Shown here: piece by piece, positions 19,119 through 64,000 of the stretch
Numbering within the stretch: position 1 is the first letter of the stretch
How the letters are laid out: every line of letters starts with the position of its first letter
From: Owenia fusiformis
Lineage: Eukaryota > Annelida > Polychaeta > Sabellida > Oweniidae
Length of the DNA stretch: 64,000 nucleotides
Reading direction: 5' to 3'
Assembly (NCBI GenBank): GCA_903813345.2
Contig: CAIIXF020000011.1
Coordinates: 8,084,571-8,148,570 of the forward strand
Notes under the pieces: generated by a model
Seen by the model: only the letters and a program-made list of their open reading frames with translations
What the model was told of the DNA's origin: nothing
The model's database searches: none
Program-made: the position numbers and the translations under genes

Positions 19119-19430
19119 GACTTGGAATCTTGTCCGAAAACTGACATTTCGTCCATACCGCAGACTGCATCATTGATTTATGACGGATTAGATATTAAAT
19201 ATTTCCCTAAATTAAAGATCAATCAACAAGTCCTTGTTGGGCAAACGTAAAACTATATACTCAAATGTCTCGCAAATTAGGAGACGATTCGCTGTTCCAA
19301 GCGTGACGTAAGACTTAAATGTACATGTAGGACTTGTCCGAAAACTGACATTTCGTCTATTGCGCGAACCGCAACTTTGATTTATGACGAATTAGATTTT
19401 AAATATCTCCCTAAATTAAATGATTTATGG
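19119..19430 (+). repeat. Isolated, highly diverged satellite monomers
   Basis: Two copies of TTGTCCGAAAACTGACATTTCGTC at 19,129 and 19,334 (about 204 bp apart), with 'aatcaacaagtccttg', 'caagcgtgacgtaagac' and 'gatttatgacg(g/a)attaga' in the order of the 186-bp satellite that starts at 26,833. They are much more diverged than any monomer in the array and lie 7.4 kb away, in forward orientation. They are a relic of an older array edge or a dispersed progenitor. Confidence 0.8.
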
Positions 19431-24930: not shown

Positions 24931-25581
24931 AATCTGAGTAATATGATAGATAGTTGGTTCTTCAAAATAAGAGGTCACTTAGATTTTGAATATCAATATA
25001 TATTTGTATCAAGTGTTATAAAGATTCTGATCTTTGTAACTTACTTAACTTTAGCATGCGGATTAATATTCAATGGGTTTACATTAATTGCAGAGTTCCT
25101 GTGACAGTGTCATTTATTTATTTTTAGTGATCAAGAAAGTACTTTGCACGCTCCCGCCAAGTTATATAGGAAGAAAGCCAGAGCATTTTCATTCTGATAC
25201 ACATCGCATCTAAAAACATGTCTGTGTCTATGGTGCAAGAAGAGAGGGTCATGGTATTCCATGATGGAGCCTTGGTTTAGCTTTGGATCCCTATGCTATC
25301 ACTATGTGGCAGAAATGCATTCTGATTGGATATAAATGATCACATGACCTTAGTTCACCTTAGTTCACCAAGGGATCAGGAGATGGGATGCCAAAATGTA
25401 AAATCTCTAATAACAGGAGTGGCATTCGGAGTCCGTTAATAATTCCTGATGAAGTCCAAATATTGACATTTCGTTAATTTAGACATTTCTTTTATTAGCC
25501 AGCGCATCTCCAGTATTCACGAACGTTTTATTAAGCCCAATATACAGCAAGCCAAAGGTGAAATTTCACTTGACCACTTTT
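24931..25581. other. No gene seen
   Basis: AT-rich filler. ACCTTAGTTC occurs twice in tandem near 25,348-25,372. The stretch at 25,440-25,480 (GATGAAGTCCAAATATTGACATTTCG) vaguely resembles a satellite monomer core but is too short to call. Confidence 0.4.
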
Positions 25582-26829: not shown

Positions 26830-26832
26830 TGG

Positions 26833-28532
26833 TGCAAATGCAAAAATACAAACTCTAACGTGTCTCAAACTAACAACCCACATGGACGTAAGACTGATCC
26901 GAAAATTGACATTTCGTCTAGAGCGCAATATAAAAAAGAGCTTCATGACAAATTACATATTCCATATATCTCAAAGAGAATGACTAATCAACAAGTCCTT
27001 GGTAGAGAAAATGTAAAAATGTGTCCTCCAAAATCTCATTAATTAGCAAATAGCATGCTGCCACCAACGTTACGTACGACTGGTCCGAAAATTGACATTT
27101 CCTCCAGAGCACAAACTGCATCATAGATTTAAGACAAATTAGATATAAAATATTTCATGACCAGAAACACCAGTCATTAAATCCTTTGTAGAGAAAACGT
27201 AGAAACATGTACTGGAATTTCTCACAAATTAGCAAAGGACTATCTGGTACCAGTGTGACGTACGACTGGACAGAAAAATGACATTTTGTCCAGAGCGAAA
27301 TGTAAATCAGAGCTTTATGACAAACTAGATACTCATAATCTCACGAATAGAATGATCATACAACAAGTCCTTGGAAGAGCAAATGCAAAATTTATATCCT
27401 TACACGTTTCTCAAATAAGCAAACATCATGCTCCTACCAGCGTGACGTAAGACCGGTCCGAAAATTGCAACAAATCCTACAAATTAGATTCTCTATATCT
27501 CATGAATAGAATGACCAATCAATAAGTCCTTGGCTTGGCAAATGTAAAATGTGTCCTTAAATATAGCACCGGTCCGAAAATTTACATTTCGTCTAGGGCT
27601 TTGCGACAAATCCTACAAATTAGATACTCTATATCTTATGGATAGAATGACCAAAAACCAATGACCAAGTCCTTGGTAGGGCAAATGTAAAAATGTATCC
27701 TTAAACGCTCATTAATCGCCAAATATCTTGCTTTCACCAGCGTTACGTACGACTGGTCCGAAAATTGACATTTCTTCTAGCGCGCAAACTGCATCAGAGA
27801 TTGAAGACAAATTAAATATAAAATATATCACGAAAGGGATCAGTCATCATATCCATTGAAGAGCATACTCCAAAATAAATACTTAAACGTCTCACAAAAT
27901 AGCATAGGACTAACTAGTAGCAGTGTGACGTACGACTGGTCCGAAATTGACATTTCTTTAAGAGGGCAAACTGCATCAGCGATTTAAGACAAATTAGATA
28001 TAAAATATATCACGAACGGAAACATAAGTCATTCTATCTTTCGTAGAGCAAACGTAGCAACATATTATGAAACGTCTCTCAAACCAGCAAAGGACGAGCT
28101 AGCACCAGCGTAAAGTGCGACTGGTCAGAAAAGAGCGCAATAAAAATCAAAGCTTTATGTCAAATTAGATACCCAATATCTCACGAATAGAATGACTACT
28201 CAACAAGTCCATGGTAGAGCAAATGCAAAAAATATATACTTAAACGTCTCTCAAACTAACAAATTACGTGCTGCTACCAGTGTGACGTGAGACTGGTTCG
28301 AAAATTGACATTTTGTCTAGAGTGCAATGTAAATCAGAGCTTTACGACAAATTACATATTCCACATCTCTCGGATAGAATGACTAATCAACAAATCCTTT
28401 GTAGAGCAAATGTAAAGATGTATCCTTCAAAATCTCATTTATTGGCAAATAGCATCCTGCCACCAACGTTACGTACGACTGGTCAGAAAATTGACATTTC
28501 GTCTATATCGCAAACTATATCAGCGATTTAAG
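26833..28532 (+). repeat. Satellite, diverged left edge, forward orientation
   Basis: About nine monomers with the landmark CGAAAATTGACATTTCGTC/CTCC roughly every 185 bp. Individual monomers differ from each other and from the inner consensus far more than inner monomers do, and they do not follow the strict A-B-C order. This is the expected decay at a satellite edge. Short frames such as 28,313-28,531 are parts of monomers. Confidence 0.9.
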
Positions 28533-28834
28533 GTGCCATGGAAGTTAACAGGAAATGACAAAACAGGAAGTGACAAAATATTTTGCATTTTTAGACATTT
28601 TTTGAACAAAGATAACAGAGTTCTGTTTTGACCTCCAGTCTATTCAACTAGTTCCAAATACCGTTTACAGGTCCAGGATAACAATGTCCATGGTCAGAAT
28701 GACCCTAAACATGATGAAATAACCCTTTTCAGAAGGAGGTAGGAAAGGTCACTGAACAGAATCTTTCGAATTTTTCAGAAAATGTGCCCAATATATTGCT
28801 CTAAATGATACAATCTTTGAAATTTTAGACAATT
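28533..28834. mobile_element. Repeat F insert at a satellite orientation switch (left)
   Basis: Non-satellite DNA from GTGCCATGGAAG to GAAATTTTAGACAATT lies exactly between the forward edge and the reverse block. It shares AACAGAGTTCTGTTTTGACC, CATGGTCAGAATGACCCTAA and GAATTTTTCAGAAAATGTGC with 59,787-60,122. Relative to that copy it lacks about 34 bp after CCCTTTTCAG. The family has an inverted-repeat copy at 24,237-24,770. Confidence 0.8.
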
Positions 28835-31800
28835 GCAATTTTGTGAGACGTTTACATATATATTTTGGAGTATGCTCTTGGATGGATTTAATGAATGATG
28901 TTCCCGTTCGTGATATATTTTATATCTAATTCGTCTTAAATCTATGATGCAGTTTGTGCTCTGGAGGAAATGTCAATTTTCGGACCAGTCGAACGTAACG
29001 CTAGTGACAGCATGATATTTGTTATTTAGTGAGATGTTTCAGGATACATTTTGACATTTGCCCTACCGAGGACTTGCTGATTGGTCATACTATTCATGAG
29101 ATATTGAGTATGTAATTTGTCATACAAGTCTGATTCACTTTGGGCTATGTACGGAATGTCAATTTTCGGACCAGCTGTACACCGCACTGGTAGCAGCGAC
29201 TATTTTGATATATTGTGAGACGTTTATGTATATATTTTTACGTTTGCCAAAGGAGGGATGTATCGATTGACTTCTCTGTTAGGGGGATATATAATATCCA
29301 ATTCGTCTTAAATCGCTTATGCAATTTGCGCTCTTGACGAAATGTCAATTTTCCGACCAGTGGTACGTCACACTGGTACATGCCAGTCCTTTGCAATTTT
29401 GTGAGACGTTTAAGTATATATTTTGGAGTATGCTCTTGAATGGATTTAATGAATGATGTTCCCGTTCGTAATATATTTTATATCTAATTCGTCTTAAATC
29501 TATGCTGCAGTTTGTGCTCTGGAGGAAATGTCAATCTTCGGACCAGTCGTACGTAACTCTGGTGACAGCATGATATTTGTTATTTAGTGAGATGTTTTAG
29601 GATACATTTTGACATTTGCCCTATTGAGGACCTATTGATTGGTCATACTATTCATGAAATATTGAGTATCTAATTTGTCATACAAGTCTGATTTACTTTG
29701 GGCTATGTACGGAATGTCAATTTTCGGACCAGCTGTACATCGCACTGGTAGAAACGACTAGTTTGATATATTGTGAGACGTTTATGTATATAATTGTACG
29801 TTTGCCAAAGGAGGGATGTATCGATTGACTTCTGTGTTAGGGGGATATATAATATCCAATTCGTCTTAAATCGCTTATGCAATTTGCGCTCTTGACGAAA
29901 TGTCAATTTTCCGACCAGTCGTACGTCACACTGGTACATGCCAGTCCTTTGCAATTTTTGAGACGTTTAAGTATATATTTTTTAGTATGCTCTTGAATGC
30001 ATTTAATGAATGATGTTCCCGTTCGTGATATATTTTATATCTAATTCGTCTTAAATCTATGATGCAGTTTGTGCTCTGGAGGAAATGTCAATTTTCGGAC
30101 CAGTCGTACGTAACGCTGGTGGCAGCATGATATTTGTTATTTAGTGAGATGTTTCAGGATACATTTTTACATTTGCCCTAACTAGGACTTGTTGATTGGT
30201 CATACTATTCATGAGATATTGAGTATCTAATTTGTCATACAAGTCTGATTTACTTTGGGCTATGTACGGAATGTCAATTTTCGGACCAGCTGTACATCGC
30301 ACTGTTAGCAGCAACTAGTTTGATATATTGTAAAACGTTTATGTATATATTTTTACGTTTGCTAAAGGAGGGATGTTTCGATTGACTTCTCTGTTAGAGG
30401 GATATATAATATCCAATTCGTCTTAAATCGCTTATGCAATTTGCGCTCTTGACGAAATCTCAATTTTCCGACCAGTCTTAAGTATATATCTTGGAGTATG
30501 CTCTTGAATGGATTTAATGAATGATTTCCTGTTCGTGATATATTTTATATCTAATTCGTCTTAAATCTATGATGCAGTTTGTGCTCTGGAGGAAATGCCA
30601 ATTTTCGGACCAGTCGTACGTAACGCTTGTGATAGCATGATATTTGTTATTTAGTAAGATGTTTCAGGATACATTTTGACATTTGCCCTACCGAAGACTT
30701 GTTGATTGGTCATACTATTCATGAGATAGTGAGTATCTAATTTGTCATACAAGTCTTATTTACTTTGGGCTATGTACGGAATGTCAATTTTCGGACCAGC
30801 TGTACATCGCACTGGTAGTAGCGACTAGTTTGATATATTGTGAGACGTTTATGTATATATTTTTACGTTTGCTAAAGGAGGGATGTGTCGATTGACTTCT
30901 CTGTTAGGGGGATATATAATATCCAATTCGTCTTAAATCGCTTATGCAATTTGCGCTCTTGACGAAATGTCAATTTTCCGACCAGTCGTACGTCACACTG
31001 GTACATGCCAGTCCTTTGCAATTTTGTGAGACGTTTATGTATATATTTTGGAGTATGCTCTTGAATGGATTTAATGAATGATGTTCCCGTTCGTGATATA
31101 TTTTATATCTAATTCGTCTTAAATCTATGATGCAGTTTGTGCTCTGGAGGAAATGTCAATTTTCGGACAGGTCGTACGTAACGCTGGTGACAGCATGATA
31201 TTTGTTATTTAGTGAGATGTTTAAGGATACATTTTGACATTTGCCCTACCGAGGACGTGTTGATTGGTCCCACTATTCATGATATATTGAGTATCTAATT
31301 TGTCATACAAGTCTGATTTACTTTGGGCTATGTACGGAATGCCAATTTTCGAACCAGCTGTACATCACACTGGTACACTGGTAGCAGCGACTATTTTGAT
31401 ATATTGTGAGACGTTTATGTATTCATTTTTACGTTTGCCAAAGGAGGGATGTATCGATTGACTTCTCTGTTAGGGGATATATAATGTCCAATTCGTCTCA
31501 AATCGCTTATGCAATTTGCGCTCTTGACGAAATGTCAATTTTCCGACCAGTCGTACGTCACACTGGTACATGCCAACCCTTTGCAATTTTGTGAGACGTT
31601 TAAGTATATATTTTGGAGTATGCTCTTGAATGGATTTAATGAATGATGTTCCCGTTCGTGATATATTTTATATCTAATTCGTCTTAAATCTATGATGCAG
31701 CTTGTGCTCTGGAGGAAATGTCAAATTTCGGACCAGTCGTACGTAACGCTGGTGGCAGCATTAAAAAATGTTATTTAGTGAGATGTTTCAGGATACATTT

Positions 31801-34800
31801 TGACATTTGCCCTACCGAGGACCTATTGATTGGTCATACTATTCGTGAGATATTGAGTATCTAATTTGTCATACAAGTCTGATTTACTTTGGGCTATGTA
31901 CGGAATGTCAATTTTCGGACCAGTTGTACATCGCACTGGTAGCAGCGACTAGTTTAATATATTGTGAGACGTTAATGTATATATTCTTACGTTTGCCAAG
32001 GGAGGGATGTATCGATTGACTTCTCTGTTAGGGGGATATATAATATCAAATTCGTCTTAAATCGCTTATGCAATTTGCGCTCTTGACAAAATGTCAATTT
32101 TCCGACCAGTCGTACGTCACACTGGTACATGCCAGTCCTTTGCAATTTTGTAAGACGTTTAAATATATATCTTGGAGTATGCTCTTGAATGGATTTAATG
32201 AATGATGTTCCCGTTCATGATATATTTTATATCTAATTCGTCTTAAATCTATGATGCAATTCGTGCTCTGGAGGAAATGTCAATTTTCGGACCAGTCGTA
32301 CGTAACGCTGGTGACAGCATGATATTTGTTATTTAGTGAGATGTTTCAGGATACATTTTGACATTTGCCCTACCGAGGGCGTGTTGATTGGTCATACTAT
32401 TCATGAAATATTGAGTATCTAATTTGTCATACAAGTCTGATTTACTTTGGGCTATGTACGGAATGTCAATTTTTGGACCAGCTGTACATCACACTGGTAG
32501 CAGCGAATAGTTTGATATATTGTGAGACGTTTATGTATATACTTTTACGTTTGCCAAAGGAGGGATGTATCGATTGACTTCTCTGTTAGGGGGATATATA
32601 ACATCCAATTCGTCTTAAATCGCTTATGCAATTTGCGCTCTTGACGAAATGTCAATTTTTCGACCAGTCGTACGTCACACTGGTACATGCCAGTCCTTTG
32701 CAATTTTGTGAGACGTTTAAGTATATATCTTGGAGTATGCTCTTGAATGGATTTAATGAATGATGTTCCCGTTCGTGATATATTTTATATCTAATTCGTC
32801 TTAAATCTATGATGCAGTTTGTGCTCTGGAGGAAATGTCAATTTTTCGGACCAGTCGTACATAATGCTGGTGGCAGCATGATATTTGTTATTTAGTGAGA
32901 TGTTTCAGGATACATTGTTACATTTTCCCTACCGAGGACTTGTTGATTGGTCATTCTATTCATGATATATTGAGTATCTTATTTGTCATACAAGTCTGAT
33001 TTACTTTGGGCTATGTACGGAATGTCAATTTTCGGATCAGCTGTACATCGCACTGGTAGCAGCGACTAGTTTGATATATGTGAGACGTTTATGTATATAT
33101 TTTTACTTTTGCCAAAGGAGGGATGTATCGATTGACTTCTCTGTTAGGGGGATATATTATAATATCCAATTCGTCTTAAATCGCTTATGCAATTTGCGCT
33201 CTTGACGAAATGTCAATTTCCCGACCAGTCGTACGTCACACTGGTACATGCCAGTCCTTTGTAATTTTGTGAGACGTTAAAGTATATATATTGGAGAATG
33301 CTGTTGAATGGATTTAATGAATGATGTTCCCGTTCGTGATATATTTTATATCTAATTCGTCTTAAATCTATGATGCAGTTTGTGCTCTGGAGGAAATGTC
33401 AATTTTCGGACCAGTCGTACGTAACGCTGGTGGCAGCATGATATTTGTTATTTCCTGAGATGTTTCAGGATACATTTTGACATTTGCCCTACCGAGGACT
33501 TGTTGATTGGTCATACTATTCATGAGATAGTGAGTATCTAATTTGTCATACAAGTCTGATTTACTTTGGGCTATGTACGGAATGTCAATTTTCGGACCAG
33601 CTGTACGTCACACTGGTACATGCCAGTCCTTTGCAACTTTTGAGACGTGTAAGTATATATATTTAAGTATGCTCTTGAATGGATTTAACGAATGATGTTC
33701 CCGTTCGTGATATATTTTATATCTAATTCGTCTTAAATCTATGATGCAGTTTGTGCTCTGGAGGAAATGTCAATTTTCGGACCAGTCGTACGTAACGCTG
33801 GTGGCAGCATGATATTTGTTATTTCCTGAGATGTTTCAGGATACATTTTGACATTTGCCATACCTAGGACTTGTTGATTGGTCATACTATTAATGAGATA
33901 TTGAGTATCTAACTTGTCATACAAGTCTGATTTACTTTGGGCTAATTGTACGGAATGTCAATTTTCGGACCAGCTGTACATCGCACTGTTAGCAGCGACT
34001 AGTTTGATATATTGTGAGACGTTTATGTATATATTTTTACGTTGGCCAAAGGAGGGATGTTTCGATTGACTTCTCATGCTAGGGGGATATATAATACCCA
34101 ATTCGTCTTAGATCGCTTATGCAATTTGCGCTCTTGACGAAATGTCAATTTTCCGACCAGTCGTACGTCACACTTGTATCTTCCAGTCCTTTGCAATTTT
34201 GTGAGACGTTTAAGTATATATTTTGGAGTATGCTCTTAAATGGATTTAATGAATGATGTTCCCGTTCGTGATATATTTTATATCTAATTCGTCTTAAATC
34301 TATGATGCAGTTTGTGCTCTGGAGGAAATGTCAATTTTCGGACCAGTCGTACGTAACGCTGGTGACAGCATGATATTTGTTATTTAGTGTGATGTTTCAG
34401 GATACATTTTGACATTTGCCCTACCGAGGACGTGTTGATTGGTCATACTATTCATGAGATATTGAGTATCTAATTTGTCATACAAGTCTGATTTACTTTG
34501 GGCTATGTACAGAATGTCAATTTTCGGACCAGCTGTACATCGCACTGGTATTAGCGACTAGTTTGATATATTGTGAGACGTTTATGTATATATTTTTACG
34601 TTTGTTAAACGAGGGATGTGTCGATTGACTTCTCTGTTAGGGGGATATATAATATCCAATTCGTCTTAAATCGCTTATGGAATTTGCGCTCTTGACGAAA
34701 TGTCAATTTTCCGACCAGTCGTACGTCACACTGGTACATTCCAGTCCTTTGCAATTTTGTGAGACGTTTAAGTATATATTTTGGAGTATGCTCTTGAATG

Positions 34801-35646
34801 GATTTAATGAATGATGTTCCCGTTCGTGATATATTTTATATTTAATTCGTCTTAAATCTATGATGCAGTTTGTGCTCTGGAGGAAATGTCAATTTTCGGA
34901 CAGGTCGTACGTAACGCTGGTGACAGCATGATATTTGTTATTTGGTGAGATGTTTAAGGATACATTTTGACATTTGCCCTACCGAGGACTTGTTGATTGG
35001 TGTTACTATCCATGAGATATTGAGTATCTAATTTGTCATACAAGTCTGATTTACTTTGGGCTATGTACGGAATGTCAATTTTCGGACCAGCTGTACATCG
35101 CACTGGTACACTGGTAGCAGCGACTATTTTGATATATTGTGAGACGTTTATGTATTTATTTTTACGTTTGCCAAAGGAGGGATGTATCGATTGACTTCTC
35201 TGTTAGGGGGATATATAATGTCCAATTCGTCTCAAATCGCTTATGCAATTTGCGCTCTTGACGAAATGTCAATTTTCCGAAGAGCCATACGTCACACTGG
35301 TACATGCCAACCCTTTGCAATTTTGTGAGACGTTTAAGTATATATTTTGGAGTATGCTCTTGAATGGATTTAATGAATGATGTTCCCGTTCGTGATATAT
35401 TTTATATCTAATTCGTCTTAAATCTATGATGCAGCTTGTGCTCTGGAGAAAATGTCAAATTTCGGACCAGTCGTACGTAACGCTGGTGGCAGCATTAAAA
35501 ATTTTTAGTGAGATGTTTCAGGATACATTTTGACATTTGCCCTACCGAGGACCTATTGATTGGTCATACTATTCATGAGATATTGAGTATCTAATTTGTC
35601 ATACAAGTCTGATTTACTTTGGGCTATGTACGGAATGTCAATTTTC
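28835..35646 (-). repeat. Satellite block, reverse orientation, A-B-C trimer repeats
   Basis: About 36 monomers of 186 bp in the order C-B-A on the + strand, i.e. the reverse complement of the forward block. Landmarks: GGAGGAAATGTCAATTTTCG (C), GTACGGAATGTCAATTTTCG (B), GACGAAATGTCAATTTTCCG (A). Trimer phase is broken at least at about 30,475 and 33,600. Sub-blocks share private variants with the forward block at 45.6-48.0 kb. Confidence 0.95.
35580..35646. other. Spacer of a satellite palindrome (inversion junction)
   Basis: Mapping x to 71,226 minus x aligns the left arm ending near 35,579 with the right arm starting near 35,647. The arms share private variants, for example TATGGCTCTTCGG (35,935 and its inverse near 35,278), GTACCAGTGTACCAGTG, AAATAAATACAT and CATGGATAGTA. 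High similarity holds for about 600 bp per arm and then falls to the level of ordinary monomers. Confidence 0.8.
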
Positions 35647-38600
35647 AATGAAACGAATGACCAATCAACAAGTCCTCGGTAGGGCAAATGTCAAAATGTA
35701 TCCTGAAACATCTCAATGAATAACAAATATCATGCTGCCACCAGCGTTACGTACGACTGGTCCGAAAATTGAGATTTCCTCCAGAGCACAAACTGCATCA
35801 TAGATTTAAGACGAATTAAATATAAAATATATCACGAACGGGAACATCATTCATTAAATCCATTCAAGAGCATACTCCAAAATATATACTTAAACGTCTC
35901 ACAAAATTGCAAAGGGTTGGCATGTACCAGTGTGACGTATGGCTCTTCGGAAAATTGACATTTCGTCAAGAGCGCAAATTGCATAAGCGATTTGAGACGA
36001 ATTGGACATTATATATCCCCCTAACAGAGAAGTCAATCGATACATCCCTCCTTTGGCAAACGTAAAAATAAATACATAAACGTCTCACAATATATCAAAA
36101 TAGTCGCTGCTACCAGTGTACCAGTGCGATGTACAGCTGGTCCGAAAATTGACATTCCGTACATAGCCCAAAGTAAATCAGACTTGTATGACAAATTAGA
36201 TACTCAATATCTCATGGATAGTAGGACCAATCAACAAGTCCTCGGTAGGGCAAATGTCAAAATGTACCCTGAAACATCTCACTAAATAACAAATATCATG
36301 CTGTCACCAGCGTTACGTACGACTGGTCCGGAAATTGACATTTCCTCCAGAGCACAAACTGCATCATAGATTTAAGACGAATTAGATATAAAATATATCA
36401 CGAACGGGAACATCATTCATTTGATCCATTCAAGAGCATACTCCAAAATATATACTTAAACGTCTCACAAAATTGCAAAGGACTGGCATGTACCAGTGTG
36501 ACGTACGACTGGTCGGAAAATTGACATTTCGTCAAGATCGCAAATTGCATAAGCGATTTAAGACGAATTGGATATTATATATCCCCCTAACAGAGAAGTC
36601 AATCGATACATCCCTCCTTTGGCAAACGTAATAGTATATACATAAACGTCTCACAATATATCAAACTAGTCGCTGCTACCAGTGTGATGTACAGCTGGTC
36701 CAAAAATTGACATTCCGTACATAGCCCAAAGTAAATCAGACTTGTATGACAAATTAGATACTCAATAGCTCATGAATAGTATGACCAATCAACACGTCCT
36801 CGGTAGGGCAAATGTCAAAATGTATCCTGAAACATCTCACTAAATAAAAAATATCATATTGTCACCAGCGTTACGTACGACTGGTCCGAAAATTGATATT
36901 TCCTCAAGAGCACAAATTGCATCATAGATTTAAGACGAATTAGATATAAAATATATCATGAACGGGAACATCATTCATTAAATCCATTTAAGAGCATACT
37001 CCAAGATATATACTTAAACGTCTCACAAAATTGCAAAGGACTGGCATGTACCAGTGTGACGTACGACTGGTTGGAAAATTGACATTTTGTCAAGAGCGCA
37101 AATTGCATAAGCGATTTAAGACGAATTTGATATTATATATCCCCCTAATAGAGAAGTCAATCGATACATCCCTCCCTTGGCAAACGTAAGAATATATACA
37201 TTAACGTCTCACAATATATTAAACTAGTCGCTGCTACCAGTGCGATGTACAGCTGGTCCGAAAATTGACATTCCGTACATAGCCCAAAGTAAACCAGACT
37301 TGTATGACAAATTAGATACTCAATATCTCACGAATAGTATGACCAATCACCACGTCCTCGGTAGGGAAAATGTCAAAATGTATCCTGAAACATCTCACTT
37401 AATAACAAATATCATGCTGTCACCAGCGTTATGTACGACTGGTCCGAAAATTGACATTTCCTCCAGAGCACAAACTGCATCATAGATTTAAGACGAATTA
37501 GATATAAAATATATCACGAACGGGAACATCATTCATTAAATCCATTCAAGAGCATACTCCAAAATATATACTTAAACGTCTCACAAAATTGCAAAGGACT
37601 GGCATGTACCAGTGTGACGAACGACTCTTCGGAAAATTGACATTTCGTCAAGAGCGAAAATTGCATAAGCGATTTAAGACGAATTGGATATTATATATCC
37701 CCCTAACAGAGAAGTCTATCGATACATCCCTCCTTTGGCAAACGTAAAAATATATACATAAACGTCTCACAATATATCAAACTAGTCGCTACTACCAGTG
37801 CGATGTACAGCTGATCCGAAAATTGACATTCCGTACATAGCCCAAAGTAAATCAGACTTGTATGACAAATTACATACTCAATATCTCATGAATAGAATGA
37901 CCAATAAACAAGTCCTTGGTATGGCAAATGTAAAAATGTATCCTGAAACATCTCACTAAATAACAAATATCATGATGCCACCAGCGTTACGTACGACTGG
38001 TCCGAAAATTGACATTTCCTCCAGAGCAGAAACTGCATCATAGATTTAAGACGAATTAGATATAAAATATATCACGAACGGGAACATCATTCATAAAATC
38101 CATTCAAGAGCATACTCAAAAATATATACTAAAACGTCTCACGAAATTGCAAAGGACTGGCATGTACCAGTGTGACGTACGACTCTTCGGAAAATTGACA
38201 TTTCGTCAAGAGCGCAAATTGCATAAGCGATTTAAGACGAATTGGATATTATATATCCCCCTAACAGAGAAGTCTATCGATACATCCCTCCTTTGGCAAA
38301 CGTAAAAATATATACATAAACGTCTCACAATATATCAAACTAGTCGCTACTACCAGTGCGATGTACAGCTGATCCGAAAATTGACATTCCGTACATAGCC
38401 CAAAGTAAATCAGACTTGTATGACAAATTACATACTCAATATCTCATGAATAGAATGACCAATCAACAAGTCCTTGGTAGGGCAAATGTAAAAATGTATC
38501 CTGAAACATCTCACTAAATAACAAATATCATGATGCCACCAGCGTTACGTACGACTGGTCCGAAAATTGACATTTCCTCCAGAGCACAAACTGTATCATA

Positions 38601-50600: not shown

Positions 50601-53600
50601 TACCAGTGCGATGTACAGCTGGTCCGAAAATTGACATTCCGTACATAGCCCAAAGTAAATCAGACTTGTATGACAAATTAGATACTCACTATCTCATGAA
50701 TTGTATGACCAATCAACAAGTCCTCGGTAGGGCAAATGTCAAAATGTACCCTGAAACATCTCACTAAATAACAAATATCATGCTGTCACCAGCGTTACGT
50801 ACGACTGGTCCGAAAATTGACATTTCCTCCAGAGCACAAACTGCATCATAGATTTAAGACGAATTAGATATAAAATATATCACGAACGGGAACATCATTC
50901 ATTGAATTCATTCAAGAGCATACTCCAAAATATATACTTAAACGTCTCACAAAATTGCAAAGGACTGGAAGATACAAGTGTGACGTACGACTGGTCGGAA
51001 AATTGACATTTCGTCAAGAGCGCAAATTGCATAAGCGATCTAAGACGAATTGGGTATTAAATATCCCCCTAACATGAGAAGTCAATCGATACATCTCTCC
51101 TTTGGCAAACATAAAAATATATACATAAACGTCTCACAATAAATCAAACTAGTCGCAGCTACCAGTGCGATGTACAGCTGGTTCGAAAATTGACATTCCG
51201 TACATAGCTCAAAGTAAATCAGACTTGTATGACAAATTAGATACTCAATATCTCATGAAACGAATGACCAATCAACAAGTCCACGGTAGGGCAAATGTCA
51301 AAATGTATCCTGAAACATCTCACTGAATAACAAATATCATGCTGCCACCAGCGTTACGTACGACTGGTCCGAAAATTGACATTTCCTCCAGAGCACAAAC
51401 TGCATCATAGATTTAAGACGAATTAGATATAAAATATATCACGAACGGGAACATCATTCATTAAATCCATTCAAGAGCATACACCAAAATATATACTTCA
51501 ACGTCTCACAAAATTGCAAAGGACTGGCATGTACCAGTGTGACGTACGACTGGTCGGAAAATTGACATTACGTCAAGATCGCAAATTGCATAAGCGATTT
51601 GAGACGAATTGGATATTATATATCCCCCTAACAGAGAAGTCAATCGATACATCCCTCCTTTGTCAAACGTAAAAATATATACATAAACGTCCCAAAATAT
51701 ATCAAACTAGTCGCTGCTACCAGTGCGATGTACAGCTGGTCCGAAAATTGACATTCCGTACATAGCCCAAAGTAAATCAGACTTGTATGACAAATTAGAT
51801 ACTCACTATCTCATGAATTGTATGACCAATCAACAAGTCCTCGGTAGGGCAAATGTCAAAATGTACCCTGAAACATCTCACTAAATAACAAATATCATGC
51901 TGTCACCAGCGTTACGTACGACTGGTCCGGAAATTGACATTTCCTCCAGAGCACAAACTGCATCATAGATTTAAGACGAATTAGATATAAAATATATCAC
52001 GAACGGGAACATCATTCATTAAATCCATTTAAGAGCATACTCAAAAATATATACTTAAACGTCTCACAAAATTGCAAAGGACTGGGAGATACAAGTGTGA
52101 CGTACGACTGGTCGGAAAATTGACATTTCGTCAAGAGCGCAAATTGCATAAGCGATCTAAGACGAATTGGGTATTATATATCCCCCTAACATGAGAAGTC
52201 AATCGATACATCTCTCCTTTGGCAAACGTAAAAATATATACATAAACGTCACACAATAAATCAAACTAGTTGCAGCTACCAGTGCGATGTCCAGCTGGTC
52301 CGAAAATTGACATTCCAAACATAGCCCAAAGTAAATCAGACTTGTATGACAAATTAGATATTCAATATCTCATGAAAAGAATGACCAATCAACAAGTCCT
52401 CGGTAGGGCAAATGTCAAAATGTATCCTAAAACATGTCACTGAATAACAAATATCATGCTGCCACCAGCGTTACGTACGACTGGTCCGAAAATTGACATT
52501 TCCTCCAGAGCACAAACTGTATCATAGATTTAAGACGAATTAGATATAAAATATATCACGAACGGGAACATCATTGATTAAATCCATTCAAGAGCATACT
52601 CCAAGATATATACTTAAACGTCTCACAAAATTGCAAAGGACTGGCATGTACCAGTGTGACGTACGACTGGTCGGAAAATTGACATTTCGTCAAGAGCGCA
52701 AATTGCATGAGCAATTTAAGACGAATTGGATATTATATATCCCCCTAACAGAGAAGTCAATCGAAACATCCCTCCTTTGGCCAACGTAAAAATATATACA
52801 TAAACGTCTCACAATATATCAAACTAGTCGCTGCTAACAGTGCGATGTACAGCTGGTCCGAAAATTGACATTCCGTACAATTAGCCCAAAGTAAATCAGA
52901 CTTGTATGACAAGTTAGATACTCAATATCTCATTAATAGTATGACCAATCAACAAGTTTTAGGTAGGGCAAATGTCAAAATGTAACCTGAAACATCTCAG
53001 GAAATAACAAATATCACACTGTCACCAGCGTTACGTACGACTGGTCCGAAAATTGACATTTCCTCAAACTGCACAAACTGCATCATAGATTTAAGACGAA
53101 TTAGATATAAAATATATCACGAACAGGAACATCATTCATTAAATCCATTCAACAGCATACACCAATATATATACCTAAACGTCTCACAAAATTGCAAAGG
53201 ACTGGCATGTACCAGTGTGACGTACGACTGGTCGGGAAATTGACATTTCGTCAAGAGCGCAAATTGCATAAGCGATTTAAGACGAATTGGATATTATAAT
53301 ATATCCCCCTAACAGAGAAGTCAATCGATACATCCCTCCTTTGGCAAAAGTAAAAATATATACATAAACGTCTCACATATATCAAACTAGTCGCTGCTAC
53401 CAGTGTGATGTACAGCTGATCCGAAAACTTACATTCCGTACATAGCCCAAAGTAAATCAGACTTGTATGACAAATAAGATACTCAATATATCATGAATAG
53501 AATGACCAATCAACAAGTCCTCGGTAGGGAAAATGTAAAAATGTATCCTGAAACATCTCACTAAATAACAAATATCATGCTGCCACCAGCGTTATGTACG

Positions 53601-56600
53601 ACTGGTCCGAAAATTGACATTTCCTCCAGAGCACAAACTGCATCATAGATTTAAGACGAATTAGATATAAAATATATCACGAACGGGAACATCATTGATT
53701 AAATTAATTCAAGAGCATACTCCAAGATATATACTTAAACGTCTCACAAAATTGCAAAGGACTGGCATGTACCAGTGTGACGTACGACTGGGCGGAAAAT
53801 TGACATTTCGTCAAGAGCGCAAATTGCATGAGCAATTTAAGACGAATTGGATATTATATATCCCCCTAACAGAGAAGTCAATCGATACATCCCTCCTTTG
53901 GCAAACGTAAAAGTATATACATAAACGTCTCACAATATATCAAACTAGTCGCTGCTACCAGTGTGATGTACAGCTGGTCCAAAAATTGACATTCCGTACA
54001 TAGCCCAAAGTAAATCAGACTTGTATGACAAATTAGATACTCAATATCTCATGAATAGTATGACCAATCAACACGTCCTCGGTAGGGCAAATGTCAAAAT
54101 GTATCCTGAAACATCTCACTGAATAACAAATATCATGCTGTCACCAGCGTTACGTACGACTGGTCCGAAAATTGACATTTCCTCCAGAGCACAAATTGCA
54201 TCATAGATTTAAGACGAATTAGATATAAAATATATCATGAACGGGAACATTATTCATTAAATCCATTCAAGAGCATACTCCAAGATATATACTTAAACGT
54301 CTCACAAAATTGCAAAGGACTGACATGTACAAGTGTGACGTACAACTCGTCGGAAAATTGACATTTTGTCAAGAGCGCAAATTGCATACACGATTTAAGA
54401 CGAATTTGATATTATATATCTACCTAACAGAGAAGTCAATCGATACATCCCTCCCTTGGCAAACGTAAAAATATATACATTAACGTCTCACAATATAGCA
54501 AACTAGTCGCTGCTACCAGTGCGATAAACAGTTGGTCCGAAAATTGACATTCCGTACATAACCCAAAGTAAATCAGACTTGTATGACAAATTAGATACTC
54601 AATATATCATGAATAGTTTGACCAATCAAAACGTCCTCGGTAGGGAAAATGTCAAAATGTATCCTGAAACATCTCACTAAATAACAAATATCATGCTGTC
54701 ACCAGCGTTACGTACGACTGGTCCGGAAATTGACATTTCCTCCAGAGCACAAACTGCATCATAGATTTAAGACGAATTAGATATAAAATATATCACGAAC
54801 GGGAACATCATTCATTGAATCCATTCAAGAGCATACTCCAAAATATATACTTAAACGTCTCACAAAATTGCAAAGGACTGGAAGATACAAGTGTGACGTA
54901 CGACTGGTCGGAAAATTGACATTTCGTCAAGAGCGCAAATTGCATAAGCGATCTAAGACGAATTGGCTATTATATATCCCCCTAACATGAGAAGTCAATC
55001 GATACATCTCTCCTTTGGCAAACATTAAAATATATACATAAACGTCTCACAATAAATCAAACTAGTCGCAGCTACCAGTGCGATGTACAGCTGGTCCGAA
55101 AATTGACATTCCGTACATAGCCCAAAGTAAATCAGACTTGTATGACAAATTAGATACTCAATATCTCATGAAACGAATGACCAATCAACAAGTCCTCGGT
55201 AGGGCAAACGTCAAAATGTATCCTGAAACATCTCACTGAATAACAAATATCATGCTGCCACCAGCGTTACGTACGACTGGTCCGAAAATTGACATTTCCC
55301 CAGAGCACAAACTGCATCATAGATTTAAGACGAATTAGATATGAAATATATCACGAACGGGAACATCATTCATTAAATCCATTCAAGAGCATACTCCAAA
55401 ATATATACTTGAACGACTCACAAAATTGCAAAGGACTGGCATGTACCAGTGTGACGTACGACTGGTCGGAAAATTGACATTTCGTCAAGATCGCAAATTG
55501 CATAAGCAATTTGAGACGAATTGGATATTATATATCCCCCTAACAGAGAAGTCAATCGATACATCCCTCCTTTGTCAAACGTAAAAATATATACATAAAC
55601 GTCTCAAAATATATCAAACTAGTCGCTGCTACCAGTGCGATGTACAGCTGGTCCGAAAATTGACATTCCGTACATAGCCCAAAGTAAATCAGACTTGTAT
55701 GACAAATAAGATACTCACTATCTCATGAATTGTATGACCAATCAACTAGTCCTCGGTAGGGCAAATGTCAAAATGTACCTTGAAACATCTCACTAAATAA
55801 CAAATATCATGCTGTCACCAGCGTTACGTACGACTGGTCCGGAAATTGACATTTCCTCCAGAGCACAAACTGCATCATAGATTTTAGGCGAATTAGATAT
55901 AAAATATATCACGAACGGGAACATCATTCATTAAATTCATTCAAGAGCATACTCCAAAATATATACTTAAACGTCTCACAAAATTGCAAAGGACTGGCAT
56001 GTAGCAGTGTGACGTACGACTGGTCGGAAAATTGACATTTCGTCAAGATCGCAAATTTCATAAGCGATTTGAGACGAATTGGGTATTATATATCCTCCTA
56101 ACAGAGAAGTCAATCGATACATCCCTCCTTTGGCAAACGTAAAAATATATACACAAACGTCTCAAAATATATCAAACTAGTCGCTGCTACCAGTGCGATG
56201 TACAGCTGGTCCGAAAATTGACATTCCGTACATATCCTAAAGTAAATCAGACTTGTATGACAAATTAGATACTCACTATCTCATGAATAGTATGACCAAT
56301 CAACAAGTCCTCGGTAGGGCAAATGTCAAAATGTACCCTGAAACATCTCACTAAATAACAAATATCATGCTGTCACCAGCGTTACGTACGACTGGTCCGG
56401 AAATTGACATTTCCTCCAGAGCACAAACTGCATCATAGATTTAAGACGAATTAGATATAAAATATATCACGAACGGGAACATCATTCATTAAATCCATTC
56501 AAGAGCATACTCCAAAATATATACTCAAACGTCTCACAAAATTGCAAAGGACTGGAAGATACAAGTGTGACGTACGACTGGTCGGAAAATTGACATTTCG

Positions 56601-59230
56601 TCAAGAGCGCAAATTGCATAAGCGATCTAAGACGAATTGGGTATTATATATCCCCCTAACATGAGAAGTCAATCGATACATCTCTCCTTTGGCAAACATA
56701 AAAATATATACATAAACGTCTCACAATAAATCAAACTAGTCGCAGCTACCAGTGCGATGTACAGCTGGTCCGAAAATTGACATTCCGTACATAGCTCAAA
56801 GTAAATCAGACTTGTATGACAAATTAGATACTCAATATCTCATGAAACGAATGACCAATCAACAAGTCCTCGGTAGGGCAAATGTCAAAATGTATCCTGA
56901 AACATCTCACTGAATAACAAATATCATGCTGCCACCAGCGTTACGTACGACACACCGAAAATTGACATTTCCTCCAGAGCACAAACTGCATCATAGATTT
57001 AAGACGAATTAGATATAAAATATATCACGAACGGGAACATCATTCATTAAATCCATTCAAGAGCATACTCCAAAATATATACTTAAACGTCTCACAAAAT
57101 TGCAAAGGACTGGAATGTACCAGTGTGACGTACGACTGGTCGGAAAATTGACATTTCGTCAAGATCGCAAATTGCATAAGCGATTTGAGACGAATTGGAT
57201 ATTATATATCCCCCTAACAGAGAAGTCAATTGATACATCCCTCCTTTGTCAAACGTAAAAATATATACATAAACGTCTCATAATATATCAAACTAGTCGC
57301 TGCTACCAGTGCGATGTACAGCTGGTCCGAAAATTGACATTCCGTACATAGCCCAAAGTAAATCAGACTTGTATGACAAATTAGATACTCACTATCTCAT
57401 GAATTGTATGACCAATCAACAAGTCCTCGGTAGGGCAAATGTCAAAATGTACCCTGAAACATCTCACTAAATAACAAATATCATGCTGTCACCAGCGTTA
57501 CGTACGACTGGTCCGGAAATTGACATTTCCTCCAGAGCACAAACTGCATCATAGTTTTAAGACGAATTAGATATAAAATATATCACGAACGGGAACATCA
57601 TTCATTAAATCCATTCAAGAGCATACTCCAAAATATATACTTAAACGTCTCACAAAATTGCAAAGGACTGGCATGTACCAGTGTGACGTACGACTGGTCG
57701 GAAAATTGACATTTCGTCAAGATCGCAAATTGCATAAGCGATTTGAGACGAATTGGGTATTATATATCCCCCTAACAGAGAAGTCAATCGATACATCCCT
57801 CCTTTGGCAAACGTAAAAATATATACATAAACGTCTCAAAATATATCAAACTAGTCGCTGCTACCAGTGCGATGTACAGCTGGTCCGAAAATTGACATTC
57901 CGTACATATACCAAAGGAAATCAGACTTGTATGACAAGATAGATACTCAATATCTCATGAAACGAATGACCAATCAACAAGTCCTCGGTAGGGCAAATGT
58001 CAAAATGTATCCTGAAACATCTCACTGAATAACAAATATCATGCTGCCACCAGCGTTACGTACGACACACCGAAAATTGACATTTCCTCCAGAGCACAAA
58101 CTGCATCATAGATTTAAGACGAATTAGATATAAAATATATCACGAACGGGAACATCATTCATTAAATCCATTCAACAGCATACTCCAATATATATACTTA
58201 AACGTCTCAGAAAATTGCAAAGGACTGCCATGTACCAGTGTGACATACGACTGGTCGGAAAATTGACATTTCGTCAAGAGCGCAGATTGCATAAGCGATT
58301 TAAGACGAATTGGATATTATATATCCCCCTAACAGAGAAGTCAATCGATACATCCCTCCTTTGTCAAACGTAAAAATATATACATAAACGTCTCAAAATA
58401 TATCAAACTAGTCGCTGCTACCAGTGCGATGTACAGCTGGTCCGAAAATTGACATTCCGTACATAGCCCAAAGTAAATCAGACTTGTATGACAAATAAGA
58501 TACTCAATAGCTCATGAATTGTATGACCAATCAACAAGTCCTCGGTAGGGCAAATGTCAAAATGTACCCTGAAACATCTCACTAAATAACAAATATCATG
58601 CTGTCACCAGCGTTACGTACGACTGGTCCGGAAATTGTCATTTCCTCCAGAGCACAAACTGCATCATAGATTTAAGACGAATTAGATATAAAATATATCA
58701 CGAACGGGAACATCATTCATTAAATCCATTCAAGAGCATACTCCAAAATATATACTTAAACGTCTCACAAAATTGCAAAGGACTGGCATGTAGCAGTGTG
58801 ACGTACGACTGGTCGGAAAATTGACATTTCGTCAAGATCGCAAATTGCATAAGCGATTTGAGACGAATTGGGTATTATATATCCCCCTAACAGAGAAGTC
58901 AATCGATACATCCCTCCTTTGGCAAACGTAAAAATATAAACATAAACGTCTCAAAATATATCAAACTAGTCGCTGCTACCAGTGCGATGTACAGCTGGTC
59001 CGAAAATTGACATTCCGTACATAGCCCAAAGTAAATCAGACTTGTATGACAAATTAGATACTCAATATCTTATGAATAGTATGACCAATCAACAAGTCCT
59101 AGGTAGGGCAAATGTAAAAATGTATCCTGAAACATCTCACTAAATAACAAATATCATGCTGCCACCAGCGTTACGTACGACTGGTCCGAAAATTTCCTCC
59201 AGACATTTCCTCCAGAGCACAAACTGCATC
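35647..59230 (+). repeat. Satellite block, forward orientation, 558-bp trimer higher-order repeat
   Basis: About 127 monomers of 186 bp. The measured steps at 43,582, 43,768, 43,954 and 44,140 are each 186 bp. Monomer types are A (CATTTCGTCAAGAGCGCAAA), B (CATTCCGTACATAGCCCAAA) and C (CATTTCCTCCAGAGCACAAA), repeating as A-B-C (558 bp). Longer periods: 5.03 kb (37,240 to 42,267; 49,571 to 54,601) and 1,117 bp (49,951, 51,068, 52,185). Trimer order breaks at about 45,989 (A skipped) and 47,165 (B joins A). As 186 is 62 codons, 60-80-codon frames such as 45,056-45,301 recur in nearly identical form; stops interrupt every trimer. No function is claimed. Confidence 0.97.
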
Positions 59231-59786
59231 ATAGATTTGAGACAAATTAGATATAAAATATATCACGAACGGAAACATAAGTCATTCTATCTTTCGTAGA
59301 GCAAACGTAGCAACATATTCTGAAACGTCTCTCAAACCAGCAAAGGACGAGCTAGCACCAGCGTAAAGTGCGACTGGTCAGAAAAGAGCGCAATAAAAAT
59401 CAAAGCTTTATGTCAAATTAGATACCCAATATATCACGAATAGAATGACTACTCAACAAGTCCATGGTAGAGCAAATGCAAAAATATATACTTTAACGTC
59501 TCTCAAACTAACAACTTACGTGCTGCTACCAGTGTGACGTGAGACTGGTTCGAAAATTGACATTTTGTCTAGAGTGCAATGTAAATCAGAGCTTTACGAC
59601 AAATTACATATTCCACATCTCTCGAATAGAATGACTAATCAACAAATCCTTTGTAGAGCAAATGTAAAGATGTATCCTTCAAAATCTCATTTATTAGCAA
59701 ATATAGCATCCTGCCACCAACGTTACGTACGACTGGTCAGAAAATTGACATTTCGTCTATATCGCAAACTATATCAGCGATTTAAG
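59231..59786 (+). repeat. Internal copy of the diverged satellite edge
   Basis: Three edge-type monomers almost identical to 27,978-28,532 (shared: GGAAACATAAGTCATTCTAT, GGACGAGCTAGCACCAGCG, GACTGGTTCGAAAATTGAC; offset about 31,253 bp). They sit between homogeneous forward monomers and the repeat F insert. A short internal duplication (TTTCCTCCAGACATTTCCTC) at 59,193 marks the junction. Confidence 0.85.
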
Positions 59787-60122
59787 GTGCCATGGAAGTT
59801 AACAGGAAATGAAAAAACAGGAAGTGACAAAATATTTTGCATTTTTAAACATTTTTTGAACAAAGATAACAGAGTTCTGTTTTGACCTCCAGTCAATTCA
59901 ACTAGTTCCAAATACCATTTACAGGTCCATGATCACAATGTCCATGGTCAGAATGACCCTAAACATGATGAAATAACCCTTTTCAGCCCTTTGAATATGT
60001 GACTGAAAAATAGCTAAAAGAAGGAGGTAGGAAAGGTCACTGAACAGAATCTTTCGAATTTTTCAGAAAATGTGCCCAATATATTGCTCTAAATGATACA
60101 ATCTTTGAAATTTTAGACAATT
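59787..60122. mobile_element. Repeat F insert at a satellite orientation switch (right)
   Basis: Same insert, same flanking bases (GCGATTTAAG on the left, GCAATTTTGTGAGACG on the right) and same orientation as 28,533-28,834. It includes the segment CCCTTTGAATATGTGACTG that the other copy lacks. The 106-codon frame at 59,565-59,885 crosses from satellite into the insert and is not a gene. Confidence 0.8.
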
Positions 60123-63100
60123 GCAATTTTGTGAGACGTTAAGGTATATATTTTTTAGTATGCTCTTGAATGCATGTAATGAATGATGTTCCCGTTCGTG
60201 ATATATTTTATATCTTATTCGTCTTAAATCTATGATGCAGTTTGTGCTCTGGAGGAAATGTCAATTTTCGGACTAGTCGTACGTAACGCTGGTGGCAGCA
60301 TGATATTTGTTATTTAGTGAGATGTTTCAGGATACATTTTTACATTTAACCTACCTAGGACTTGTTGATTGGTCATACTATTCATGAGATATTGAGTATC
60401 TAATTTGTCATACAAGTCTGATTTACTTTGGGCTATTTACGGAATGTCAATTTTCGGACCAGCTGTACATCGCACTGTTAGCAGCAACTAGTTTGATATA
60501 TTGTAAAACGTTTATGTATATATTTTTACGTTTGCTAAAGGAGGGATGTTTCGATTGACTTCTCTGTTAGAGGGATATATAATATCCAATTCGTCTTAAA
60601 TCGCTTATGCAATTTGCGCTCTTGACGAAATGTCAATTTTCCGACCAGTCGTACGTCACACTTGTACATGCCAGCCCTTTGCAATTTTGTGAGAATTTAA
60701 GTATATACTTTGGAGTATGCTCTTGAATGGATTTAATGAATGATGTTCCCGTTCGTGATATATTTTATATCTAATTCGTCTTGAATCTATGATGCAGTTT
60801 GTGCTCTAGAGGAAATGTCAATTTTCGGACCAGTCGTAAGCAACGATGGTGACAGCATGATATTTGTTATTTAGTGAGATGTTTTAGGATACATTTTGAC
60901 ATTTGCCCTACCGAGGACCTATTGATTGGTCATACTATTCATGAGATATTGAGTATCTAATTTGTCATACAAGTCTGATTTACTTTGGGCTAAGTACGGG
61001 ATGTGAATTTTCGGACCAGCTGTACATCGCACTGGTAGAAACGACTAGTTTGATATGTTGTGAGACGTTTTTGTATATATTTTTACGTTTGCCAAAGGAG
61101 GGATGTATCGATTGACTTCTGTGTTAGGGGGATATATAATATCCAATTCGTCTTAAATCGCTTATGCAATTTGCGCTCTTGACGAAATGTCAATTTTCCG
61201 ACCAGTCGTACGTCACACTGGTACATGCCAGTCCTTTGCAATTTTTGAGACGTGTAAGTATATATAATTAAGTATGCTCTTGAATGGATTTAATGAATGA
61301 TGTTCCCGTTCGTGATATATTTTATATCTAATTCGTCTTAAATCTATGATGCAGTTTGTGCTCTGGAGGAAATGTCAATTTTCGGACCAGTCGTACGTAA
61401 CGCTGGTGGCAGCATGATATTTGTTATTCAGTGAGATGTTTCAGGATACATTTTGACATTTGCCCTACCGAGGACTTGTTGATTGGTCATTCGTTTCATG
61501 AGATATTGAGTATCTAATTTGTCATACAAGTCTGATTTACTTTGAGCTATGTACGGAATGTCAATTTTCGGACCAGCTGTACATCGCACTGGTAGCTGCG
61601 ACTAGTTTGATTTATTGTGAGACGTTTATGTATATATTTTTATGTTTGCCAAAGGAGAGATGTATCGATTGACTTCTCATGTTAGGGGGATATATAATAC
61701 CCAATTCGTCTTAGATCGCTTATGCAATTTGCGCTCTTGACGAAATGTCAATTTTCCGACCAGTCGTACGTCACACTTGTATCTTCTAGTCCTTTGCAAT
61801 TTTGTGAGACGTTTAAGTATATATTTTGGAGTATGCTCTTGAATGGATTTAATGAATGATGTTCCCGTTCGTGATATATTTTATATCTAATTCGTCTTAA
61901 ATCTATGATGCAGTTTGTGCTCTGGAGGAAATGTCAATTTTCGGACCAGTCGTACGTAACACTGGTGACAGCATGATATTTGTTATTTAGTGAGATGTTT
62001 CAGGATACATTTTGACATTTTCCCTACCGAGGACGTGTTGAATGGTCAAACTATTCATGATATATTGAGTATCTAATTTGTCATACAAGTCTGATTTACT
62101 TTGGGCTATGTACGGAATGTCAATTTTCGGACCAACTGTTCATCGCACTGGTAGCAGCGACTAGTTTGCTATATTGTGAGACGTTAATGTATATATTTTT
62201 ACGTTTGCCAAGGGAGGGATGTATCGATTGACTTCTCTGTTAGGGAGATATATAATATCAAATTCGTCTTAAATCGCGTATGCAATTTGCGCTCTTGACA
62301 AAATGTCAATTTTCCGACCAGTTGTACGTCACACTGGTACATGCCAGTCCTTTGCAATTTTGTGAGACGTTTAAGTATATATCTTGGAGTATGCTCTTGA
62401 ATGGATTTAATGAATAATGTTCCCGTTCATGATATATTTTATATCTAATTCGTCTTAAATCTGTGATGCAGTTTGTGCTCTGGAGGAAATGTCAATTTTC
62501 GGACCAGTCGTACGTAACGCTGGTGACAGCATGATATTTGTTATTTAGTGAGATGTTTCAGGATACATTTTGAAATTTGCCCTACCGAGGACGTGTTGAT
62601 TGGTCATACTATTCATGAGATATTGAGTATCTAATTTGTCATACAAGTCTGATTTACTTTGGGCTATGTACGGAATGTCAATTTTCGGACCAGCTGTACA
62701 TCGCACTGGTAGCAGTGACTAGTTTGCTATATTGTGAGATGTTAACATATATATTTTTTACGTTTGCCAAGGGAGGGATGTATCAATTGACTTCTCTGTT
62801 AGGGGGATATATAATATCCAATTCGTCTTAAATCGCTTATGCAATTTGCGCTCTTGACGAAATCTCAATTTTCCGACCAGTCGTACGTCACATTGGTACA
62901 TGCCAGTCCTTTGCAATTTTGTGAGACGTTTAAGTATATATCTTGGAGTATGCTCTTGAATGGATTTAATGAATGATGTTCCTGTTCGTGATATATTTTA
63001 TATCTAATTCGTCTTAAATCTATGATGCAGTTTGTGCTCTGGAGGAAATGCCAATTTTCGGACCAGTCGTACGTAACGCTGGTGATAGCATGATATTTGT

Positions 63101-64000
63101 TATTTAGTAAGATGTTTCAGGATACATTTTGACATTTGCCCTACTGAGGACTTGTTGATTGGTCATACTATTCATGAGATAGTGAGTATCTAATTTGTCA
63201 TACAAGTCTTATTTACTTTGGGCTATGTACGGAATGTCAATTTTCGGACCAGCTGTACATCGCACTGGTAGTAGCGACTAGTTTGATATATTGTGAGACG
63301 TTTATGTATATATTTTTACGTTTGCTAAAGGAGGGATGTATCGATTGACTTCTCTGTTAGGGGATATATAATGTCCAATTCGTCTCAAATCGCTTATGCA
63401 ATTTGCGCTCTTGACGAAATGTCAATTTTCCGACCAGTCGTACGTCACACTGGTACATGCCAACCCTTTGGAATTTTGTGAGACGTTTAAGTATATATTT
63501 TGGAGTATGCTCTTGAATGGATTTAATGAATGATGTTCCCGTTCGTGATATATTTTATATCTAATTCGTCTTAAATTCATGATGCAGTTTGTGCTCTGGA
63601 GGAAATGTCAATTGTCGGACCAGTCGTACGTAACGCTGGTGGCAGCATGATATTTGTTATTTCCTGAGATGTTTCAGGATACATTTTGACATTTGCCCTA
63701 CCTAAAACTTGTTGATTGGTCATACTATTAATGAGATATTGAGTATCTAACTTGTCATACAAGTCTGATTTACTTTGGGCTAATTGTACGGAATGTAAAT
63801 TTTCGGACCAGCTGTACATCGCACTGGTAGCTGCGACTAGTTTGATATATTTTGAGACGTTTATGTATATATTTTTACTTTTGCCAAAGGAGGGATGTAT
63901 CGATTGACTTCTCTGTTAGGGGGATATATTATAATATCCAATTCGTCTTAAATCGCTTATGCAATTTGCGCTCTTGACGAAATGTCAATTTCCCGACCAG
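60123..64000 (-). repeat. Satellite block, reverse orientation, runs off the window
   Basis: About 21 monomers, reverse-orientation trimer repeats as in 28,835-35,646. The stretch 60.9-63.3 kb carries the private variants of the forward stretch 48.2-50.7 kb in inverted order. The first units (60,123-60,600) match 29,960-30,440 (shared GCACTGTTAGCAGCAACTAG and TTGTAAAACGTTTATG). The array continues past the window. Confidence 0.95.

Follow-up and report, generated by a model that had tools for sequence, protein, structure and literature searches.

The window analysed here, a stretch of 64,000 nucleotides from the annelid Owenia fusiformis (contig C11), contains a tandem repeat in which three types of 186-bp monomers alternate. 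Such an organization raises two questions: how the array was built, and whether it marks a centromere. Positions given below are those of the window. For the adjoining DNA, sampled as another six 10-kb pieces of C11, the window numbering was continued (extended coordinates).

Monomer types and the trimeric repeat unit

TRF and a profile HMM agreed on the presence of tandem 186-bp repeats in the window, and TRF assigned them to most of the 28.8-64 kb interval. The full-length monomers of the window (n = 190) comprised 60 of type A, 63 of type B, 60 of type C and 7 divergent ones. Full-length core monomers lying next to each other on one strand formed 178 pairs, of which 175 kept the order A>C>B>A, the three exceptions being located at 33413, 45817 and 46932. 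The spacing between monomers of the same type peaked at 558 bp (mostly 557-559 bp). In the C11 region from 28 kb on, identity within a type reached 95.5% (A), 94.4% (B) and 94.1% (C), compared with 64.3-70.5% between the three types. The sequence therefore shows both features of a higher-order repeat (HOR) satellite, i.e. a repeating multi-monomer unit and units that are more alike than the monomers of which they consist.

In a FastTree analysis of the 190 window monomers, type A (60/60, support 0.938) and type C (60/60, support 0.987) each formed a single clade, as did type B (63/63), with a support of just 0.29. The original prediction of a 186-bp satellite with a 558-bp trimer HOR is thus confirmed by TRF, the profile HMM and the monomer order, and the three clades that had been set beforehand as its test were recovered, weakly in the case of B. 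Average-linkage clustering at 20% distance was applied to 860 full-length monomers from the C11 region and 14 further loci (L027-L040, among which L032 contributed no full-length monomer). It distinguished types A (292), B (263), C (251), D (21), E (12), F (9) and G (9), as well as three singletons. Some pieces of contig C12 carry other monomer orders, e.g. ACBAACBA, which means that the trimer is not the sole HOR of this genome.

The left border of the array adjoins a 112-bp tandem repeat (225-bp dimer; TRF; plus strand, 25581-26824, split by an insert at 26000-26192), and not a transposon end. It is built of plus-strand divergent monomers of types D, F and G with single A- and B-like ones (26825-28532; typed from an HMM block of 10 hits at 26898-28532). 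The first monomer, as read from the sequence, is partial (26825-26897), and the full-length ones at 26.8-28.5 kb follow in the order F, D, G, B, A, D, F. Outside the array, an isolated diverged stretch of about 1.5 monomers was found at 19132-19413 (plus strand; HMM scores of 107 and 48 bits), with 68-71% blastn identity to satellite copies at the sampled loci.

The edge had been predicted to consist of decayed monomers bordering a homogenised HOR. The divergent edge does exist. However, monomers of types D and F turn up again within the region, immediately before 59.79 and 109.48 kb, and divergent types are also present on C2 and elsewhere on C11 (L027, L028, L038, L040, L043), hence the edge is not simply the product of decay of the neighbouring trimer. 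Judging by their sequences, these monomers look like an older layer of the satellite family.

Strand switches and insertions

A satellite filling 37 kb had also been described. The satellite is indeed there, but it lies on mixed strands, contains MITE arms and runs beyond the window. The profile HMM revealed plus-strand monomers at 26.8-28.53 kb, minus at 28.83-35.65, plus again at 35.64-59.79 and minus from 60.11, so that the orientation switches at 28.5, 35.65 and 59.8 kb. The first minus-strand block (28827-35646, 37 monomer hits) is an A-C-B trimer array read on that strand. The following plus-strand block (35641-59786, 131 monomer hits) ends with monomers of the old D and F types, and the second minus-strand block (60115-64000) passes the end of the window.

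Each of the switches at 28.5 and 59.8 kb contains a single arm of a palindromic, dispersed MITE, in both cases on the plus strand: the arm at 28533-28826 is 88% like that at 59787-60114 and has a deletion. The minus-to-plus junction (35628-35670) is devoid of a MITE arm, and the same 43 bases are found at extended 83730 and at position 6224 of the unplaced contig C97. The arm at 59787 had at least 82 matches of 84-100% identity on C1 to C12 and C158 (40 of 1819 candidates scored), and the MITE copies among the matches listed mostly consist of two inverted arms about 90 bp apart. Six plus-to-minus switches are present in all the sampled sequence, and five of them, all on C11, have a single MITE arm (28.5, 59.8 and extended 109.5 kb, as well as C11:8.525 and 8.927 Mb). 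No arm was found at the sixth (C2, L038) or at any of the three minus-to-plus switches of the sampled sequence. Within the array region, MITE arms sit at inner strand switches only.

Beyond the window, in extended coordinates, the array continues on the minus strand to 67873 and then, after insertions, at 69727-76470 and 77517-83748, on the plus strand at 83743-109484, and again on the minus strand at 109813-110588. A 500-N gap at extended 110589, about 47 kb past the window, ends the assembled array, and the right border is lost in it. The whole region spans approximately 84 kb, including insertions and MITE arms, the 37 kb in the window being a part of it. Two insertions with inverted ends were recognized by eye, one of 1853 bp with a duplicated TTAT (extended 67874-69726) and one of 1046 bp (extended 76471-77516), whose inverted ends we take to be mariner-like. 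Both are transposon-like.

Duplication and inversion of blocks

The 127 complete trimers showed a mean identity of 0.948 for all pairs and 0.949 for the 112 neighbour pairs, and inside a block identity was flat with distance (0.949 at one unit and 0.950 beyond 20 units). For 45 of the 47 trimers located at 31.7-60.3 kb, the best match was found in the 79.8-110 kb segment (mean 0.994), with offsets of 47-50 kb in 42 of these 45 cases, which points to recent copying of a block of approximately 30 kb. Sixteen of 45 minus-strand trimers had a plus-strand partner with an identity of at least 0.98, and collinear inverted runs were observed among the partners (e.g. 61948 and 62506 versus 49132 and 48573). 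Copying also involved the border: the left flank (23.8-26.8 kb), with its 112-bp repeats, has a copy of about 95-98% identity at C11:8.52 Mb (L027), where the copied block consists of the 23.8-26.8 kb segment, the MITE arm and a minus-strand array.

Since the 31.7-60.3 kb segment has a counterpart of about 99.4% identity 47-50 kb further on, and distant trimers are as alike as neighbouring ones, the C11 region is one that was altered through block duplication and inversion, and not one homogenised array. In this respect the predicted homogenised HOR gives way to a mosaic of blocks. On three large contigs, three monomer types with a common ancestry are fixed in the 558-bp trimer. The C11 copy later underwent transposon insertion, and blocks thousands to tens of thousands of bases long were duplicated and inverted in it, the joins lying at a MITE arm and at a single short joint without homology. 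The blocks may have originated when broken DNA or stalled replication forks were repaired between repeats, possibly by template switching or by unequal exchange between sister chromatids.

On C2, one private variant occurs 56 times over 31 kb (11.639-11.670 Mb), mostly at 558-bp intervals, which indicates that local homogenisation does take place elsewhere in the family. The locally homogenised appearance of this array (11.64-11.67 Mb) is counted against the pericentromeric explanation presented below.

Genomic distribution of the satellite

The genome searched comprised 498,259,871 bases in 525 contigs; the main text describing the published assembly reports 505.8 Mb and 12 chromosome-scale scaffolds (PMC9977687). 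Two primers published for O. fusiformis, syt1 forward and elav1 reverse (PMC8111721), each had a single, exact match in this genome, in sequences recognizable as the synaptotagmin membrane segment and as ELAV RRM3, which makes the species very probable. The elav1 forward primer, on the other hand, gave no match with up to 2 mismatches and is absent from L047, and the syt1 reverse primer is absent from the 3 kb of L046; introns could account for both. A search of the assembly for COX1 was negative. A core 20-mer, with up to 2 mismatches allowed, gave 5175 matches versus 2 for the reversed control. At 186 bp each, this corresponds to approximately 0.96 Mb (0.19% of the genome). This is a minimum estimate, since the core 20-mer misses diverged monomers.

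The absence of the satellite from contigs was judged solely from two complete lists of rare core variants (46 and 95 places, 141 in total), and not from the core-20-mer listing, in which exact matches contained in L041 and L042 do not appear. The two lists included, respectively, 9 and 69 places on C2, 19 and 9 on C11, 16 and 14 on C12, 1 and 2 on C97, and 1 and 1 on C483; the second list is not independent, as 56 of its 69 places on C2 belong to one array. None of the 141 sampled variant monomers was located outside C2, C11, C12 and the unplaced C97 and C483; any relatives whose core has changed would be missed by these patterns. Of an older core form, 100 of 212 places were listed, all on C2, which has no bearing on other contigs. 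Contig C9 has a small satellite patch (4.23 Mb), which lies next to a copy of the 1853-bp element. Centromere satellites commonly, although not obligatorily, occur on every chromosome. As all 141 sampled places lie on three large contigs (out of about 12 chromosomes) or two unplaced ones, with the C9 patch in addition, this is not a genome-wide centromere satellite.

One main region was apparent on C11 (7.65-8.93 Mb; 18/19 and 9/9 sampled variants) and one on C12 (24.5-25.6 Mb; 15/16 and 10/14), the clusters of the latter contig lying at 17.3, 22.2 and 24.5 Mb; locus L044 (C12:25.540-25.544 Mb) contained no monomer. On C2 the satellite is spread over 9.9-18.9 Mb, with clusters at 9.9, 11.2, 11.64, 12.64, 16.25, 17.9 and 18.6 Mb. 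This spread is wider than a compact pericentromere, and we count it against the explanation given in the next section. The same trimer types were identified on C2 (L036-L038) and C12 (L033-L035), where they are 91.6-95.7% like the C11 blocks, i.e. approximately as within C11, the C11 locus L028 being lower (90.0-93.2%).

Possible chromosomal role of the satellite

A centromeric or pericentromeric role of the satellite is plausible, and on sequence grounds we treat it as a candidate. In our opinion the array is probably (with a probability of about 0.62) a non-coding, heterochromatin-type complex satellite, likely pericentromeric, persisting by passive spread; the confidences in this explanation and in its alternatives are not exclusive shares. 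The array would be packaged as silent chromatin, and the part of it in the window would have no kinetochore role. The most economical reading appears to be that of a heterochromatic satellite residing on three chromosomes and spreading via block copying and inversion. No Pfam match was obtained for the 12 left-flank ORFs scanned (out of at least 30 ORFs of at least 75 residues), and no part of the window matched an Rfam family at gathering score.

It is also possible, albeit clearly less probable, that the satellite forms interstitial heterochromatic knobs, or is specific to a subset of chromosomes, and is unrelated to the centromere. Its limitation to three chromosomes and the several separated clusters per chromosome (C2, C12) fit such a scenario, against which it speaks weakly that the clusters occupy the interior zone of each chromosome and not its ends.

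Several features of the monomers were analysed in relation to a putative centromere function. Of the 186 circular windows, the 13-mer AAATTGACATTTC varies least over A, B and C (0.0185 versus 0.038). Its low variation could mean that it is bound by a protein, which is counted against the passive heterochromatic explanation. For low variation, the window GAAAATTGACATT, which overlaps AAATTGACATTTC, comes first in B and fourth in C, whereas its rank in A is 112. Types A, B and C share an identical run of at most 13 (weakly significant, p 0.028), and the invariant columns of the seven type consensuses were not significantly clustered at window sizes of 20, 30 and 40 (p 0.10, 0.28 and 0.21, respectively). 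The dyad CCAGT...ACTGG was rejected as a conserved box, given that the ranking of the 186 windows by low variation places CCAGTGTGACGTACGACT, which sits at the alignment end where C has gaps, at 93 in A, 45 in B and 175 in C. When folded as single-stranded DNA, one trimer outperformed each of 100 shuffles (z -3.05). The 13-mer constraint and the trimer folding are leads, not centromere evidence. As predicted, the CENP-B box (NTTCGNNNNANNCGGGN) is absent from the array: the only match in the window (up to 1 mismatch; 5.05 expected) is at 20387, outside the array. This box is missing from many centromere satellites.

It seems to us doubtful that C2, C11 and C12 have their functional (CENP-A) centromeres in the HOR arrays, with other satellites acting on other chromosomes. 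The trimer HORs, the near-nucleosomal unit length, the single main regions on C11 and C12, the weakly constrained 13-mer, the folding of the trimer and the locally homogenised look of the C2 array at 11.64 Mb would all suit a centromere. Active human HOR cores, however, show local homogenisation, which the C11 region lacks, and the dispersal over 9 Mb on C2, the lack of sampled monomers on the remaining large contigs and the lack of a CENP-B box in the window array also argue against this view. A cenH3 gene is present in O. fusiformis, according to PMC12153100, and is counted in its favour.

The strand switches and the 48-kb duplication might, on the other hand, be assembly errors, i.e. unpurged haplotypes or chimeric joins, which we regard as improbable. 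The 500-N gap and the different arrangement of the unplaced C97 (93-98% identity) could be taken as signs of such errors, as could the making of the published assembly, for which PacBio reads were assembled with CANU and combined with Bionano and Hi-C (PMC9977687). Against this, not a single N occurs in the window or up to 110588, the minus-to-plus joint is letter-identical at three places, one of them on another contig, and the boundary composed of plus array, MITE arm and minus array recurs at C11:8.525 and 8.927 Mb. Least credible is the suggestion that the inverted, alternating HOR blocks are the working centromeres of three chromosomes in this deep-branching annelid, the kinetochore being borne by these blocks and not by a single head-to-tail core, with a short conserved box recruiting a stand-in protein for CENP-B.

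Relation to known satellites and significance

The satellite family is new; its kind, a HOR satellite, is already known. Primate alpha-satellite consists of 171-bp monomers arranged in multi-monomer HORs, with divergent edges and occasional inversions. The Owenia satellite is similar in its nucleosomal-length monomers, in the fixation of diverged types in a multi-monomer unit, in its divergent edge monomers and in its occasional inversions. It differs in monomer length (186 bp), the absence of a CENP-B box in the window, the distance-independent identity, the short strand blocks and its sampled occurrence on three large contigs only, and no sequence kinship is claimed. PcH-Sat of the limpet Patella caerulea (PMC11121367) is likewise a satellite of a spiralian marine animal, likened here by description alone; unlike the Owenia family, its title suggests an origin from Nin-SINE. 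In the open-licence literature no Owenia satellite or centromere sequence was found in print: judging by title, none of the works on annelid satellites or 186 bp satellites describes the Owenia 186-bp family, and the word 'satellite' is absent from the main text of PMC9977687.

Should the satellite be centromeric, its HOR could be used directly as a probe for FISH and ChIP in a key annelid. If it is not, the region would still be a clear case in which large block duplications, both inverted and direct, shaped a satellite region in the absence of distance-dependent homogenisation. The 558-bp repeat may be useful mainly as a marker to locate the centres of Owenia chromosomes.

Left flank of the array

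Long ORFs are absent from positions 1-26800 of the window, a region in which TRF detected abundant tandem repeats (units of 142, 135, 318, 337 and 19 bp, among others) and of which several stretches recur at 9.19 Mb of the same contig. A diverged relative (69-75%) of the palindromic MITE, whose arms lie at strand switches of the satellite array, is located at 24238-24758. The 112-bp tandem repeat adjoining the left border of the array is split into two blocks by a 193-bp insert (26000-26192), the start of which resembles a mariner-type inverted end (CAGGGTGTCTC...). No match to this insert was found in any of the other fetched loci, including the copy of the border at 8.52 Mb.

Related arrays on other contigs

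The minus-to-plus joint of the array is also carried by C97, an unplaced contig of 29.6 kb, where it is connected to an inverted copy of the 62.2-72.8 kb segment (window numbering carried past 64000); this arrangement may represent another haplotype, another locus or a chimera.

On another large contig, C2, a 31-kb array of the higher-order repeat (11639193-11670202) contains one private variant 56 times, mostly at a spacing of 558 bp, and therefore this array was probably amplified locally from one unit.
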